A program made the translations under genes and the position numbers. 36,827 bases of DNA, from assembly GCA_947446585.1 (NCBI GenBank), contig CANFGZ010000004.1:1-36827 (forward strand). The letters are read 5' to 3'. The stretch's first letter is position 1. Each line of letters starts with the position of its first letter. This DNA is from Chitinophagaceae bacterium (GTDB taxonomy: Bacteria; Bacteroidota; Bacteroidia; Chitinophagales; Chitinophagaceae). Under the pieces are notes generated by a model, which made no database searches, was not told the DNA's origin, and worked only from the letters and a program-made list of their open reading frames with translations. This document shows positions 700 to 33,871 of the stretch, one piece after another.

Positions 700-802
700 T
701 TAATTAGTAGAGTATGCTACAAAGGTAGAGATTATATTGTTTATTCGTTGAGTTGTTGAGTTGGGTTTAAGTCAGCGTCTTGAGGTTTAATTTTCAAACT
801 TA

Positions 803-4502: not shown

Positions 4503-5060
4503 TTATACTTCTGACTGATTAGTATGTTTGGAATTTCTATCAAAAAAATACATCATGATAAAAATAACTAAGTAAGCAAATATATTAAACCAAGTATGAT
4601 GATCGAGTCCTAATGGCATTGGCCATCCTTTATTGATTGCTACTAAAAATAACCCAATGCGAGTGGTGTTGATTACCCACAACATCAACAACCCTCCCAA
4701 TAACCAAAGTAGCTTTTTAACTAGAGGATTGGTAATTGCAATTACAAAAGCTGCCCAAAAACTCATCACCCCATATCCTGCACAACTATAAGAAACAAAT
4801 ACACCTTTGGCATTGACTACTTTTAATAAAAATCCTGGTAAAATTTCTGTTTGATATCCAAACAATGCAGCAATATAAGTTGCGCCGTAAACAAGAGAGT
4901 GTCTTAGCCAACTTACATAATCAACATACTTTTCAATGAATGGAATATAATATCCTCCAGGAGTAGCCAGGCCACTTAGAAACTTTGTTCCATAATAGAA
5001 GGCAAGGAAAAGGACTAAAAATTTTAAGAGGAAGGTATAAAATGGATTAGTGAATTTCAT
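4503..5060 (-). CDS. Exosortase/archaeosortase family protein
   Basis: 185 aa, multiple hydrophobic segments. Conserved Cys/Arg/His triad contexts: VSYSCAGYGVMSFW, WVINTTRIGLF, LDHHTWFNIFAY. Confidence 0.85.
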   Translation of the reverse strand: MKFTNPFYTFLLKFLVLFLAFYYGTKFLSGLATPGGYYIPFIEKYVDYVSWLRHSLVYGATYIAALFGYQTEILPGFLLKVVNAKGVFVSYSCAGYGVMSFWAAFVIAITNPLVKKLLWLLGGLLMLWVINTTRIGLFLVAINKGWPMPLGLDHHTWFNIFAYLVIFIMMYFFDRNSKHTNQSEV

Positions 5061-5072
5061 AGATTGAATACT

Positions 5073-5104
5073 GTTGAGACGTTGAGGCGTTTAGTTGTTG
5101 AGAT
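5073..5104. repeat. Octamer array, 4 units of GTTKAGNY
   Basis: gttgagac gttgaggc gtttagtt gttgagat, in register, just upstream of the exosortase start codon. Confidence 0.75.
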
Positions 5105-5325
5105 AAAAAACCAACCATCAAAATCATATTGCATATAGGTTCTTTTTTAAAAACAATCTTTAATTAAAATTATTATTCAACTTTTGTCTTGACACACGAG
5201 ACGTTCAAAGTTCAACGTTATATTTATTTGAAAGTTAATGATTAATGGAAAATAGAAATTATAAAATAGTATTCAACATTGAACGATTTAAAATCCGTTG
5301 AAACTTATTCGTTGAACATTAAAAC

Positions 5326-7884: not shown

Positions 7885-8090
7885 TGCCTTTTTGGTTGTC
7901 CAAAAGAGCTTAGAATCAGCAATACTCGCTATTACGGAAAAGGCTTCTAAAACTTAACAAGTTGTTTTAAAATTGTGATTTTATTAATGCCTTTTTGCTT
8001 GTCCAAAAAAGCTTAAAATCAGCAATACCCGCTATTACGGAAAATGTTTCTAAATCTTAGCAAGTTGTTTTAAAATTGTGATTTTATTAA
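7885..8090. repeat. Two tandem copies of a 103-bp repeat (7885-7987, 7988-8090), with a partial third copy starting at 8091
   Basis: Both copies run TGCCTTTTTGsTTGTCCAAAA...TTTTAAAATTGTGATTTTATTAA, with about 8 mismatches over 103 bp by eye. About 22 bp recur at 8091. Confidence 0.85.
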
Positions 8091-8092
8091 TG

Positions 8093-8411
8093 CCTTTTTG
8101 CTTGTCCAAAAAGGCAAACAAAAAGGACCCCGCCATCGATTGCCAGCCCGATGGCGGCTGGTTCCTTGATTTAGCTTTAAAACATACCGTCAACTTGAAA
8201 TCAATTTGATTTTTTGTTTATTGGCGTTTTGCCTAGCACTCGACAACCTTGGTACAATGTTTATTATTGATACCGTTCGCTTGCCAGCATAACGAACAAA
8301 AAGCGAAGCCAATGAAGGTATGTGCGCCTGCCTGCTTTTTGGAGTGGTGACCGAAGGGCAATGCCTTAAGCGAACTTGATTTTTTGCGTCCTTTTTGATC
8401 AAGCAAAAAGG
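8093..8411. repeat. 319-bp segment bounded by 22-bp near-perfect inverted repeats (MITE-like candidate)
   Basis: Left end CCTTTTTGCTTGTCCAAAAAGG (8093-8114); right end CCTTTTTGATCAAGCAAAAAGG (8390-8411). The left end's reverse complement matches the right end at 20 of 22 positions. No obvious target-site duplication. Confidence 0.55.
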
Positions 8412-8497: not shown

Positions 8498-9721
8498 TTA
8501 ATCGAATTTAGACAAACCGATATTCATTGACAACACTGACTTCTCTATAATTTCAGCTAAATAATTTTGATTAAAAGGAGAAATTTTATTGAGAGAAACG
8601 TCTCCCATTTGTTTGACTAATGAAGGGTTATTGCAAAATTCCTGCATTTTATTAAACAAATCATTTTCAACACCCGATTTAAATACAAAACCATTTTTGC
8701 CTTGCTCAATAAGATCGGGTGCACACCCTACTTTATCACTTACTATCATAGCTTTTCCGCAAGTCATCGCTTCATTCACCGCCAATCCCCAGGTTTCACC
8801 GGGGCCTTGTGAGGGTAATACGAATACATCTGCTAAGCGATAGACAATGGGCATCATTGATTGGTTTTGGAAAGGAAGGAAGATGATGTTGAGTTGTTGA
8901 GTTGTTGAGTTGTTGAGTTGTGTAATTTTAGATAGATCAACTAAATTATCTTTAAGTATGCCGTCTCCAACGAAAATCAAATGACAATCGTGTCTTGTTT
9001 CACTCAACTGCTTGAATGCTTTGATTAATAGCTCAGGATTTTTTTTGGATTCTAATTTTCCGGCAAATAAAAAAACTAAATCATTTTCTTTAATACCTAA
9101 ATCTAATCGCCATTGAGATGCACGCTGATTATATTCTCCTGTTAAATCAACAAAACGATTATTGTCTACCACATGCGGCGCATAAATCAATTGATTTTCT
9201 TTGATGTTATATTGTTTAAAATATTGTCGATTGTTCTCCCCCACATACAATGCATAATCAATGTTTCGATAAACCCATTTTAGCACTATATTTTTAATAA
9301 TAGATTTAAAGAAAGACGGAGAATCAAGTAAAGTAGAGTCGCCTCTAAAAAATAGAGGGATTTTATTTCTAAAATATCGCAAGCACGACAAATGAGCAGA
9401 ATAGCTCCATCCATATACTAACAATGCATCAGGCTGCCAGTTTTTGATTTGCTCATTTAGATCCCGACATTGAATGCCCTTAAAATGATGAGAACCTGGA
9501 TGCTTAGATATGGTTTCTAAAAACTGATATTCATACCCTTCTAACAACGGAATATCCCATTGAATAGATTTACCAAAACCAGGATCATATTTATCTTTTA
9601 AAACCGATTCTCCCCAAGTATAAAAAACTTTAATGGAAATAATCGCTCTCTCGCTTAGTAAACGAAACAAAGGGGCGTTGTACTGAATGGGATGAGTAGT
9701 GACAATAGCTAATTTTTTCAT
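8498..9721 (-). CDS. Glycosyltransferase family 4
   Basis: KKLAIVTTHPIQYNAPLFRLL; LVFLFAGKLESKKNPELLIKAF; VFVLPSQGPGETWGLAVNEAMTCGKAMIVSDKVGCAPDLI. Confidence 0.92.
   Translation of the reverse strand: MKKLAIVTTHPIQYNAPLFRLLSERAIISIKVFYTWGESVLKDKYDPGFGKSIQWDIPLLEGYEYQFLETISKHPGSHHFKGIQCRDLNEQIKNWQPDALLVYGWSYSAHLSCLRYFRNKIPLFFRGDSTLLDSPSFFKSIIKNIVLKWVYRNIDYALYVGENNRQYFKQYNIKENQLIYAPHVVDNNRFVDLTGEYNQRASQWRLDLGIKENDLVFLFAGKLESKKNPELLIKAFKQLSETRHDCHLIFVGDGILKDNLVDLSKITQLNNSTTQQLNIIFLPFQNQSMMPIVYRLADVFVLPSQGPGETWGLAVNEAMTCGKAMIVSDKVGCAPDLIEQGKNGFVFKSGVENDLFNKMQEFCNNPSLVKQMGDVSLNKISPFNQNYLAEIIEKSVLSMNIGLSKFD
8888..8919. repeat. In-gene octamer array (GTTGAGTT)x4 inside GT4 8498..9721
   Basis: gttgagtt gttgagtt gttgagtt gttgagtt; the coding strand reads TQLNNSTTQQLNII without breaking the frame. 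Confidence 0.9.
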
Positions 9722-9820: not shown

Positions 9821-10621
9821 TTATATACTAAACAATCCGTATTCCTTTCTGATTTTAATTGACAAGATTTTGCCTCTTATTAATTTTTTTATTATATTTT
9901 TTATATTAATTGCACTAGTCAAAAATAAAATATTTGAATAATTGTTTTTATGAACAACATAAATAACTCCCCATAATGGACAATCAATCAATAACTCATT
10001 GTGAAAATCTTTTATTCTTCCATAAGTATACCCATGGGCTTCAAAAAGATTGAAGTCCCAAAATAAATTTCTATTAAAATCAGGAATTGTAATCAAATCT
10101 TTTCTTATGATATGCGTACTCCCATTTATATTTTGAATGTCATATTTTTTTATCAATATGCATGAATTCTCTTCGTAAATAAACCCTTTTTTAATTCTCC
10201 ACCCGGGGGGTGAATTGCTTAAGTTTTCATTTACATATTTAGCAAGCTTATTACTAACCAGATCATCGCTATCAACGCCCATCAAATAATCACAACCAAG
10301 ATCAATTGCCTTCTTACATCCATAATGAATTTTCTTTCCTTTGTCAAGCATTTTTTCAGCATATTCTAATTTATAGTATTTAAGGACATAATCTAAATCC
10401 TCAATCGAATCAGCTGATACAGAGTTGAACGGAAATTTTTCAAAAAAAATATTTTCATGTTTATAGTTGATCTCTGGTAAATCATTATAAACAATTATCA
10501 ATTTGAACTTCTGATCTTTTTGCGCACAAATAGATTTAACAGTCCTACTTAACAATAAATTATCATAGTCCCAATTTTTGGAAACAGATTTAGGTTTTAC
10601 AGGAACAACAAAGCCAATCAT
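9821..10621 (-). CDS. Glycosyltransferase, GT2-like / putative rhamnosyltransferase-type
   Basis: MIGFVVPVKPKS...LLSRTVKSICAQKDQKFKLIIVYNDLP; GCDYLMGVDSDDLVSNKLAKYV. Confidence 0.72.
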   Translation of the reverse strand: MIGFVVPVKPKSVSKNWDYDNLLLSRTVKSICAQKDQKFKLIIVYNDLPEINYKHENIFFEKFPFNSVSADSIEDLDYVLKYYKLEYAEKMLDKGKKIHYGCKKAIDLGCDYLMGVDSDDLVSNKLAKYVNENLSNSPPGWRIKKGFIYEENSCILIKKYDIQNINGSTHIIRKDLITIPDFNRNLFWDFNLFEAHGYTYGRIKDFHNELLIDCPLWGVIYVVHKNNYSNILFLTSAINIKNIIKKLIRGKILSIKIRKEYGLFSI

Positions 10622-10632
10622 ATAATTATCTA

Positions 10633-11398
10633 CTAATGTTTTCTGGAAAAAAAATAATACTCGCCTGTCACTCTTTTAACAAAACTTTTATCTAGCGCGG
10701 ACATTACAGTCGTTTCACATTCAGGACTAAGATGAGGATGAAGTTCAACAATGATATTGTTCGTCTTTTTAAGCCACTTATGATAATTTTTTTTCAAAAA
10801 CCTCTTTTTCACTTCCTTCAATATCAAGTTTTAGCAAGTCCAGCACATTAATCCCAAATTGACTCATAATATCTTCTAAATTAATTGCACTAACCACATT
10901 TTCAGCTGTTTCACTGATTGACATTTCTTTTGTGATAAAGGAAGCATTGCCATCACCTTTGTCAATAATTTGAAGGATACCACTAGTATTCCAAATACCC
11001 TTGTTCAAACAGAAAATATCAGAATAATTCTTTGTATTTAAAGTTAGCAATTTAAAATTAGAACGCTCTGGCTCTATCGCAATTATTGAAGCTTTTGGAT
11101 ATTTGTTTTTAAGGTATAATGTAGATAGCCCAATGTTTGCTCCTCCATCAATAATAATTTTTGGAATTTGTTCAAAATGAACATTTAATTCTTCTCTCAT
11201 GAAAATTTGAGTAAATACTTGGGTATCATACTTGTCATTTCTAAGTCGAATATTTAAACCTGTATTTTTTATTTTCGCAGTTAAATATTTATTTCTTTTA
11301 AAAATTCTTTGAGCTATATAGCTAGTTGCATTCCAAAACCCCATTTTTTCATAATGAAGTAGGATTACTTTAAGCTTCAATAATAAGCGCTCAGTCAT
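10633..11398 (-). pseudogene. FkbM-family SAM methyltransferase split by a 1-nt frameshift in an A8/T8 homopolymer (10787-10794); appears as ORFs 10778..11398 and 10633..10827
   Basis: Frame 1 ends ...LDLLKLDIEGSEKEVFEKKLS*. Removing one A gives ...EVFEKNYHKWLKKTNNIIVELHPHLSPECETTVMSALDKSFVKRVTGEYYFFSRKH, a plausible FkbM C-terminus. Could be a true pseudogene, a phase-variable gene or a sequencing error. Confidence 0.8.
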
Positions 11399-11414: not shown

Positions 11415-12734
11415 TTATGAATGAATAGGTTTTGAATCATGAAGTGCCACTAATAAATCGGCCAAATATGCTGTGATTTTTTTAGCAGAAAATTTCTCAA
11501 AATCTGCCATCTCAATATTGTTTGGGTTATAATCAGTTTGAAATGTTAAAAAGTCCTGCAAGAAATCGATGAAACGATGCCCAATAGAATGAACATCAGG
11601 TTCTCCATTAAAATCAAACACTAATCCTGCATTTGTACTTCTCAACACTTCTACTGCAGAACTATATTTATGCAAAACTGCCATAACAGGCTTTTTACTA
11701 AGAACTGCTTGAAAGGCTTTGGAAGGAGTATAATGTGGCTCTGTGCTACCCAATATAAAAACAGCATCAGCAATATTTAAATGGGTTAAAACGTCTAAAT
11801 AAGGAATACGTTTGGGATATTCAAATACGATTGTATTCCACAAACTGTATTTTTCAGCTAATGACTTGATGTTATAACTTTCAGGATCGTTGGGTCGGCT
11901 GCCGGTTCCAATGAAATGGAATTCTATTTTCTGTTGAGGTGTTGAGTTGTTGAGGTGTTGAGAAAGAGATTTGAATATTTCCTCTAAAAGAAGATAGGCC
12001 TTTGGTAACATGGCGCCGGCATAAACAAACTGAATCACCCCTGCTTTCTTTTGAAATAAATATGGCTGTAAATTCAATCTCTTAACAGCCTCATGATCTG
12101 ACGACTCCCCACCATAAGGCATGGCACCAAATTTACAAGTACCTTTTAAATGAGGATTTCGATCAATAACAGACCGATAATACCCCTCAGCAACTCCAGT
12201 AATAAGAGAAGCTTTTTTAACAGCAATGGGTTCTAAAAATTTAGCCAACTGAGTACTCCACCAATGTCGAGAAAAAAACTTATTAGAACCAGGGAATTGA
12301 TGCACCCAGGGATCAACATAATCAATTCCATAGCGTACACCCGTTTTTCGATGAAGGTATCGGCCTATTAAAGCCGTATAAAAAGAAGGAACAATGATAT
12401 AAACGAAATCAATCTTCTCTAATTGAATCAACTCCAGTGCTTTTTTACGTAATTGAAAAAAACCACGTAGTCCAATATCTCCAATCAGTCTCGGCTTAGT
12501 TACAGAAAAAGCATTCACTTTTTCTATTCTTTGATTATTTGGAATTAGCTTATGCAAGTTCCAATCTAAATTTTCCTCATAATACTTTTCATGTACTGTT
12601 AAAATAATAGGCTCCCAACCAAAGGAAGACAAATGTTGAGCAAACAATCTTGCTCTATGAACAGCAGCCAAGTTAGATGGTGGGTAATGAGGAGATATGA
12701 GGAGGATTTTTTTCAATTTAGTAAGGCTTCCCAT
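11415..12734 (-). CDS. Glycosyltransferase family 4-like
   Basis: KKILLISPHYPPSNLAAVHRARLFAQHLSSFGWEPIILT; FVYAGAMLPKAYLLLEEIF; HFIGTGSRPNDPES. Confidence 0.85.
   Translation of the reverse strand: MGSLTKLKKILLISPHYPPSNLAAVHRARLFAQHLSSFGWEPIILTVHEKYYEENLDWNLHKLIPNNQRIEKVNAFSVTKPRLIGDIGLRGFFQLRKKALELIQLEKIDFVYIIVPSFYTALIGRYLHRKTGVRYGIDYVDPWVHQFPGSNKFFSRHWWSTQLAKFLEPIAVKKASLITGVAEGYYRSVIDRNPHLKGTCKFGAMPYGGESSDHEAVKRLNLQPYLFQKKAGVIQFVYAGAMLPKAYLLLEEIFKSLSQHLNNSTPQQKIEFHFIGTGSRPNDPESYNIKSLAEKYSLWNTIVFEYPKRIPYLDVLTHLNIADAVFILGSTEPHYTPSKAFQAVLSKKPVMAVLHKYSSAVEVLRSTNAGLVFDFNGEPDVHSIGHRFIDFLQDFLTFQTDYNPNNIEMADFEKFSAKKITAYLADLLVALHDSKPIHS
11933..11962. repeat. In-gene octamer array (GTTGAGKT)x3.75 inside GT4 11415..12734
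   Basis: gttgaggt gttgagtt gttgaggt gttgag; the coding strand reads SLSQHLNNSTPQQK. Confidence 0.88.
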
Positions 12735-24839: not shown

Positions 24840-25786
24840 TTTATAAATCTATGTATAACAGGCAATTGTTTTAAAAAAAAAGGAGATTTTAGTAAAAAGG
24901 GGTACCTATAAAACTCTTTTAGCAACAATAATAATTGAGTCTTACGGCTAGGCTTTTTAATTAATAAGTTGTATTCATAAAACCGTTGCCACAAAAGAAA
25001 TATCCTCCCTTTTAATATAGATGCACCTTTTCCCCAAGTAAATAAATTATAAAATAAATCCGGCCTGTTTGCAAGAATTACATCTTCATGTTTACTACGA
25101 TTGTTATAATGCAATCCATATAAAACAACTGGATTAATTAAATCTCCTGGGCATAATTTGCAAACGGCAGCTAATTTTATACAAAAGTCAGTATCCTGAG
25201 ACAACCTAAGTCTTACATCAAAAAAACCTGTCTTTTGAAAAACGGTCTTTTTTACAGTCAATGCATTTAAAAAGAAAAAACCAGCATTTCCAACAGGACT
25301 CATATTTTCGAATAATTTATCATGAGAAATAGGCTCTTTAATAGTTAATAAATTATTTATTTTCTCAAGCCTATTTTCTCCATCATCATCTAGCGCATGA
25401 GCTAAAGAAGCACTATAAACACCTTCAATAGTATCATCAGAAAGAAATATTTCTTTATCTCTATTGAAACGACCCGGTAAATATTGATCATCCGCATCTA
25501 AAAAAGAAACATAATCAGCATTTGAATTATGAATACCTAGATTTCTTGAGGCGCTAGCACCTTGATTCCCTTTATCAGGATGTTGAAATAACTTAATCTT
25601 ATTGAACTTAATTGATAATTCTCTACAAACTTCAAGAGATTCGTCAGAAGATCCATCTTCAATCAGTATCACTTCAGATACCTCAGGTTGATTAAGAGCC
25701 GATTCGACTGCCTTTTCTAAAAAAAAAGCTGCATTATATATAGGAATAATTACGGATAGAGTAAAATTTGAATTTTTAAACATCAT
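24836..25786 (-). CDS. Glycosyltransferase family 2
   Basis: [65 protein letters not shown] overlap with the next gene. Confidence 0.93.
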
Positions 25787-27261
25787 GACTTCTTAACACG
25801 ATAATCGTTAACCATATTCCTGTATTCGCTATCAAAGAATGAACGAATTATAATTTTAATGCTGGTGATATACTTTAAAACAAATTGTCGATAAATGAAT
25901 TTTAAAAAAATATACTTATTTGAACATGTTCTTAGGTACGAAATGCAGTATTTAGAGAGTTCCGAAAGATTGAAATCTTTTACATTGTCGTCATGAATAA
26001 TAAAATCAATAATGCTTTTTAAAGATCGATTATAGGCGTTTTTAACGGAAGGTACAGAAGGGAAATGATGATAAATCTCTTTGTAAACAAAGTTGGATTT
26101 AATCAACTTGATTTTGATATCCAAAGAGCTCCAAACACCATCTTGATGAGTTCTATAACAACCTGAATTGAAATTAAGATACCTCCCTTTCCCATGCTGT
26201 AGAATATTAAAAAATAAAACAGCATCATTAACAACCTTGTAGTTATCAAAATCAATATTCAAAGATTCTCTTCTGAAAACTACTGTAAGTGTCTTCGTAA
26301 CCCAGTGATCAAAAAAGGAATCTACCGTGATGTCAAAATCGTTTTTTACTTTTAAATCAGTTGAAAGAGAAGATTTTTTTATAACACTACCCTCGCTATT
26401 AACAACATCATAATCGTGACAACAAATAGAATAATCTGAATTAGAATTTAAAAAATCAACTTGCTTTTGCAATTTATAAGGGTCAGTCCAATAATCATCC
26501 CCCTCACACATTGCAATGTATTTTCCAGTACAATTCGTTAATATATTATTTTGATTTGCAATTGCACCAATATTTGACGAATAAAAAATAAGTTTAAACT
26601 TACCTGGAAAACGTGTAGCAAAATCTAATACAATCTCTCTAGTATTATCATTTGAATAATCATCTCCCACAACAATATCATAATTGAAATTAACAGATTG
26701 ATTGAGTATACCCTCCAATGTATTTTTTATAAAAAGGGAATGATTGTAAGTCATAACGAACACACTCAATTTAAAATCTTCTTCACTCTTCGCATATAGA
26801 GCCATTCTAAAAAAATCATTTGATAAAAATTGATTTTTAAATCCGGCTTTTTGATAAATTTTAATAGCGGAAAAATTCGATTTATTTACATTTAAATAAA
26901 CACTTTGTAAGCCAAATTCATTAAAAGCAATTTCAATCATTTTTTTAGTGGCATCAAAGCCATAGCCTTTACCCCAATATTTTCTTTCTCCTATAAAAAT
27001 ATGAAATTCAGCATCGTAGGAATTGATATTTGTCAACTGAACATTGCCAATATAAGTGTTGGACTCAATATCACAAATTGCATACCTCTTCTCGTTTTTA
27101 CGATTTAAAACATTACCGATCCAATTGATTTCATCTTGAATGGATATTACCTGAGTAGGCTTAGAGCCAGTTAGTTGCCAAACTATTGGATCATTCCTCC
27201 ATTTCCAAGAGATATTTGCATCTGACTCTTCTAATAATCGTAAATAAACCTTACTCATCAA
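25783..27261 (-). CDS. Bifunctional protein: N-terminal GNAT (RimJ/RimL-like) N-acetyltransferase fused to a C-terminal GT2 glycosyltransferase
   Basis: N-terminal: VYLRLLEESDANISWKWRNDPIVW...GERKYWGKGYGFDATKKMIEIAFNEFGLQSVYLNVNKSNFSAIKIYQKAGFK. C-terminal: FKLSVFVMTYNHSLFIKNTLEGILNQSVNFNYDIVVGDDYSNDNT...GKYIAMCEGDDYWTDPYKLQKQVDFL. Confidence 0.9.
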   Translation of the reverse strand: MMSKVYLRLLEESDANISWKWRNDPIVWQLTGSKPTQVISIQDEINWIGNVLNRKNEKRYAICDIESNTYIGNVQLTNINSYDAEFHIFIGERKYWGKGYGFDATKKMIEIAFNEFGLQSVYLNVNKSNFSAIKIYQKAGFKNQFLSNDFFRMALYAKSEEDFKLSVFVMTYNHSLFIKNTLEGILNQSVNFNYDIVVGDDYSNDNTREIVLDFATRFPGKFKLIFYSSNIGAIANQNNILTNCTGKYIAMCEGDDYWTDPYKLQKQVDFLNSNSDYSICCHDYDVVNSEGSVIKKSSLSTDLKVKNDFDITVDSFFDHWVTKTLTVVFRRESLNIDFDNYKVVNDAVLFFNILQHGKGRYLNFNSGCYRTHQDGVWSSLDIKIKLIKSNFVYKEIYHHFPSVPSVKNAYNRSLKSIIDFIIHDDNVKDFNLSELSKYCISYLRTCSNKYIFLKFIYRQFVLKYITSIKIIIRSFFDSEYRNMVNDYRVKKS

Positions 27262-33690: not shown

Positions 33691-33691
33691 T

Positions 33692-33854
33692 ATTGAGGTG
33701 TTTAGTCGTTTAGCTGTTGAGACGTTTAGTTGTTGAATTGATTAACGATATTTGGTAGTCGGTAAATAATATTTAATTTTTTGGAGTCCGTTAAATTATT
33801 GATCTGCAAATTTATAGTGACGAATCAACGAATCAACAACTAAACAAATCAACA
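33692..33854. repeat. Two opposed octamer arrays: six GTTKAGNY-type units (33692-33739) and four units in reverse complement (33823-33854)
   Basis: attgaggt gtttagtc gtttagct gttgagac gtttagtt gttgaatt ... aatcaacg aatcaaca actaaaca aatcaaca, in register at 8-nt spacing. Confidence 0.72.
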
Positions 33855-33871
33855 AGCGAAATTTTTCGCCG

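Follow-up and report, generated by a model that had tools for sequence, protein, structure and literature searches.

The octamer array within the glycosyltransferase gene at 11415-12734 is real, and it is mostly an ordinary short tandem repeat. Very probably, a GTTGAGNN-type repeat grew by slippage or duplication in a segment which codes for a loop, and it was tolerated in a loop at the protein surface. Octamer units would have been added one by one, via slippage or tandem duplication, within the loop-coding segment of the glycosyltransferase gene; slipped-strand mispairing is the presumed molecular step. The array probably survived because a helix-to-strand loop of this kind tolerates changes in length. 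Survivors were limited to the CTCAAC sense and to lengths which keep the reading frame, and this by itself accounts for the shared orientation and the near-identical peptides at two unrelated sites.

Two octamer arrays within glycosyltransferase genes

The window, i.e., the whole stretch of 36,827 nucleotides that was analysed, is the complete contig C4 of assembly G000 (2.35 Mb, 256 contigs). The following genes and in-gene arrays are at issue:

11415..12734, minus strand: GT4-like glycosyltransferase gene P0001, 439 aa, carries the array 11932-11962
11932..11962, minus strand: in-gene octamer array TGTTGAGGTGTTGAGTTGTTGAGGTGTTGAG; the coding strand reads CTCAACACCTCAACAACTCAACACCTCAACA, residues 258-268, SQHLNNSTPQQ
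8498..9721, minus strand: GT4 glycosyltransferase gene P0002, 407 aa, carries the array 8887-8921
8887..8921, minus strand: second in-gene octamer array, perfect units, residues 267-279, TQLNNSTTQQLN

Tandem Repeats Finder (TRF) reports the array 11932-11962 with a period of 8 (3.9 copies, 91% match) and with a period of 16 at 100% match. There are seven copies of the word GTTGAGNTGTTGAG in the window, where 100 dinucleotide shuffles predict 0.00. In the product, SQHLNNSTPQQ directly precedes KIEFHFIGTGS. The repeat call, the shuffles and the position of the peptide thus bear out the octamer array which the preliminary description had reported inside this gene, and the array is confirmed to lie far beyond chance.

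The two enzymes match the Pfam family Glycos_transf_1 to different extents. P0002 scores 120.6 bits, a match to this C-terminal-domain profile, and P0001 scores 25.8 bits, slightly below the cut-off of 26.4. Homologues of P0001 across the family are 60-68% identical.

Each glycosyltransferase was aligned with 29 homologues of the same family. The array at 11932 takes the place of a variable turn which leads from the helix LEEIFK.. to the strand KIEFHFIGTG. Compared with the 29 homologues the net change is +3 residues, i.e., an overwritten turn and no clean insertion. Because the net 9 bases do not correspond to whole units, neighbouring residues must have been substituted or lost during growth. 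The array at 8887-8921 comes after the helix that follows the GDG motif and ahead of the strand IIFLPF; here the net change is about +9 residues. The two arrays thus occupy two successive helix-to-strand turns of the C-terminal domain, and both are absent from the homologues (29 per gene). This agrees with the earlier proposal of two separate events at different sites of this domain. Conservation of the peptide in homologues, which had been named as an observation that would refute two independent arrivals, was not encountered in the 29 family members of either gene.

The family profile of P0002 aligns with the structures of BshA and MshA over the array region; a search of the P0001 profile against the PDB returned no match at E 0.01. 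AlphaFold models computed from single sequences reach a mean pLDDT of 44-46, i.e., a low confidence, and their agreement with the loop placement is weak. In Rossmann-type folds such helix-to-strand turns lie opposite the active site. The array-bearing loop probably faces away from it, and would be exposed and neutral for the enzyme.

Orientation and peptide as a matter of codon arithmetic

All 16 GTTGAGNN octamers were translated. In the GTTGAG sense every frame runs into a stop codon within three units, without exception among the 16; the CTCAAC sense has no stop in any frame, again for all 16. Surviving in-gene arrays of at least three units are therefore forced into the CTCAAC sense. Further, since 8 and 3 have no common factor, the exact AACTCAAC repeat yields the identical cyclic peptide, NSTTQQLN, from every frame. 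The variant repeat GTTGAGGT translates to TSTPQHLN. Consequently, any two in-gene arrays of at least three units share their sense and nearly the same peptide.

The preliminary description had noted the near-identity of LNNSTPQQ and LNNSTTQQ in the two enzymes, and translation confirms it. As a signal, however, this likeness carries no weight: it arises automatically, AACTCAAC repeats giving NSTTQQLN in any frame. The same orientation of both arrays had been taken to point to an active process or to selection. A real repeat-growth process does exist in this lineage, as demonstrated by unit-wise changes between sister genomes (see below); the orientation is no evidence for it, because with stops in all frames of the GTTGAG sense it is forced. 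In other genomes, 38 of 38 in-ORF arrays among the matches listed are in the stop-free CTCAAC sense, yet codons dictate this outcome and the proposed genome-wide orientation test is therefore unable to discriminate. In-gene repeats of identical orientation and peptide can be pure codon arithmetic and are not to be scored as selection.

Similar arrays in other genes and genomes

A scan of a genome collection uncovered at least 111 stretches with octamer arrays in many phyla. Among the matches listed, 84 of 122 arrays with at least three units are outside any open reading frame of 100 residues or more. Those inside reading frames were found in genes for Mfd, a putative RadA (so named from a reading of the sequence plus its Pfam domains), a gyrase-B-type subunit, a UvrD-type helicase, a Mur ligase and two S49 peptidases. 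The array-bearing frames were called mechanically; ten of them were put to Pfam and all ten returned domain matches. The Mfd proteins of a Chryseobacterium metagenome-assembled genome (L018) and of Leyella stercorea (L087) belong to two bacterial orders and are only 44% identical, and both carry GTTGAGNN-type arrays in the same loop. Octamer arrays in Mfd, RadA and UvrD-type genes mean that there is nothing specific to glycosyltransferases in this phenomenon.

In another genus, a homologue of P0002 (G488, L216:439-1680) bears 7-8-base repeats of unrelated sequence, one in the same loop and others elsewhere in the gene; the motifs are GAATGGN, GGGGAAAC and CTCCACT. Evidently, some protein loops simply accept repeats. 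Where such arrays recur in housekeeping genes, as they do in several lineages, they mark loops which tolerate a change in length.

Viral contigs show no excess of the octamer, with 5 stretches compared to 4 for a composition-matched scrambled octamer. Tolerance in a loop does not explain why the GTTGAGNN word comes up in different lineages; the scrambled control was made in viral contigs.

The origin of the contig

Judged by sequence comparison, contig C4 is misbinned into G000 and appears to derive from a close relative of G806 and G796. G000 possesses an mtaB of its own, split over C80 and C119 with 78% and 75% DNA identity to the window copy, and its own glycosyltransferase pair on C41, with 67% and 52% protein identity to the window pair. 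The first 5.4 kb of the window, in turn, are 96-98% identical to the sister species G806/G796: the flank matches contigs of both at 97-98% identity over 3.0-3.4 kb, and a second G806 contig matches the window at 96% identity over 2.0 kb.

The repeat motifs differ as well. The heptamer GTTTGGN gives 25 pair matches in 380 kb of G000 (L339-L357); neither the window nor 400 kb of G806 has any. GTTGAGNN was not found in the 380 kb sample of G000. G806, G796 and G799 bear octamer arrays on several contigs; judging from matching hit coordinates, G799 and G752 appear to be one genome. It is the combination of the own mtaB and glycosyltransferase pair of G000, the identity to the sisters and the differing motifs which leads to the assignment. 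Misbinning also explains why a search of the assembly detected octamer arrays on no other G000 contig; none were found either in the 35 genomes of the same genus that were sampled first. Two species of one genus thus have different 7-8-base motifs: G000 has GTTTGGN, and the window shares GTTGAGNN with its sisters. Such species-specific motifs can serve to recognise metagenome contigs that were assigned wrongly.

Tetranucleotide composition was also considered as a proof of misbinning. It is not discriminating, the AT-rich cluster being slightly nearer to G000 than to G806.

Intergenic repeats and copy-number changes

Further arrays of the window are intergenic:

747..763, plus strand: GTTGAGTT array, two units; the region is diverged in the sister genome G806
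5073..5103, plus strand: degenerate octamer array GTTGAGAC GTTGAGGC GTTTAGTT GTTGAG, equal length in G796 and G806
5290..5320, no strand assigned: heptamer tract (window 5316), in G796 longer by two units
33699..33736, plus strand: degenerate octamer array GTTKAGNN, from the TRF-period repeat scan
33823..33855, minus strand: octamer array in opposite orientation, from the repeat scan

The array at 5073..5103 is located 12 bases upstream of the minus-strand gene 4503-5060, and the arrays 33699..33736 and 33823..33855 constitute an inverted pair within 33691-33871. The 37-kb contig has 8 octamer pair matches and thus a density far higher than the average of the sister genome, as 400 kb sampled from G806 contain 1; this comparison is to be read with the fact that the window was picked partly for its arrays. 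Slippage alone does not explain the high array density in the polysaccharide cluster.

Comparing G796 and G806 shows growth and loss of repeats unit by unit. At two of five orthologous octamer loci the two genomes differ by exactly one 8-base unit, the other three being unchanged, and at the heptamer tract (window 5316) the difference amounts to 14 bases. For the two glycosyltransferase genes themselves the sister genomes yielded no allele, and hence none that differs in its number of copies, a point which weighs against the growth reading; the sister contigs end at window 5150 and 5410, before the cluster. Almost all arrays of the sister genomes are intergenic, often less than 60 bases from a gene end. 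They occur in both orientations relative to the flanking genes, many within 60 bases of a start codon. At L305:3435-3541 and L306:4213-4311 inverted octamer arrays between two converging genes fold into a strong hairpin (z -6.4 and -3.6), perhaps a shared terminator.

Other peculiarities of the window were encountered along the way. A 103-base direct repeat (2.2 copies, 93% alike) occupies 7885-8112 in a non-coding part of the polysaccharide cluster. The FkbM-type methyltransferase gene 10778-11398 (minus strand) has a frameshift near its end beside a run of eight A, and coding resumes in another frame to about 10630 (window 10620-11398); gene decay, a homopolymer switch and a mistake in the assembly are conceivable causes. 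The open reading frame 25783-27261 fuses a GNAT acetyltransferase domain with a family 2 glycosyltransferase domain.

Alternative interpretations

One might regard the two genes as contingency loci in which gain or loss of units shifts the frame of the glycosyltransferase and turns a surface polysaccharide on or off, i.e., as a case of phase variation. According to computed translations, a change by one or two units in either array truncates the protein to 264-313 residues and three extra units bring back the full length; the genes sit in a polysaccharide cluster, a usual site for switching, and one-unit changes are on record at intergenic loci between the sister genomes. Nevertheless, we consider phase variation unlikely. 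Each gene has just about four units, a repeat number too low for frequent slippage. Three of the five orthologous octamer loci are unchanged between the sisters, and similar arrays reside in housekeeping genes, the silencing of which would do harm. Moreover, no off-phase allele was seen. A broader version, in which a motif-specific growth process beyond plain slippage makes GTTGAGNN arrays across Bacteroidota, concentrated in this cluster, with the two in-gene arrays as slow surface-sugar switches, is likewise doubtful.

Could a mobile or motif-specific element deposit GTTGAGNN octamers at new sites, genic and intergenic? The distribution of the arrays over many phyla, the arrays which two bacterial orders have in one and the same loop of Mfd and the differing 7-8-base motifs in two species of one genus would be compatible with such an element. 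It is quite improbable in view of the observations at the arrays themselves: by inspection, the flanks of the two in-gene arrays are alike only in the octamers, neither array has terminal inverted repeats as expected of a MITE- or REP-like element, the scrambled octamer is as frequent in viral contigs, and growth by single units is seen directly between sister genomes. Least credible, to the point of being nearly negligible, is a selected functional loop LNNSTTQQ common to both enzymes. It would account for the close likeness of the peptides in the two enzymes of the cluster, yet no open frame of the repeat can yield any other peptide, and the peptide is present also in the unrelated RadA, Mfd and UvrD-type helicase. 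Further, the site is a different one in each enzyme, and all 29 homologues per gene lack it.

Comparison with known systems

A literature search yielded no report on the GTTGAGNN-type octamer. Three known systems invite comparison. Phase-variable simple sequence repeats, e.g., the tetranucleotide repeats of Haemophilus influenzae (PMC2651432), resemble the arrays described here in that the unit is not a multiple of three, a surface-polysaccharide gene is affected and loss of a unit would result in a truncated protein. They differ in that here copies are few and no off-phase allele was seen.

The tandem repeats of Borgs within open reading frames have units divisible by three and add low-complexity peptide (PMC9879509). 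Common to both is the in-gene position and the addition of a low-complexity peptide; in contrast to Borg repeats, a unit of 8 means that only some copy numbers keep the frame.

The TAACTGA heptamer direct repeats, which are also reported from Bacteroidetes, have few copies and are mostly intergenic (MacGregor 2015, PMC4679880). One sense is stopped in all frames and the other is open, and the consequence for in-gene copies was already drawn in that study (PMC4679880). The octamer arrays share these properties: units of 7-8 bases, few copies, a mostly intergenic location, one sense all-stop and the other all-open. Of TAACTGA-type repeats a position immediately before start codons, in one orientation, would be expected; of the octamer arrays in the sister genomes many do come within 60 bases of a start codon, and both orientations occur. 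The unit is the octamer GTTGAGNN with a period of 8 instead of 7, and the two in-gene arrays of the window are placed within core enzyme domains, not at protein ends.
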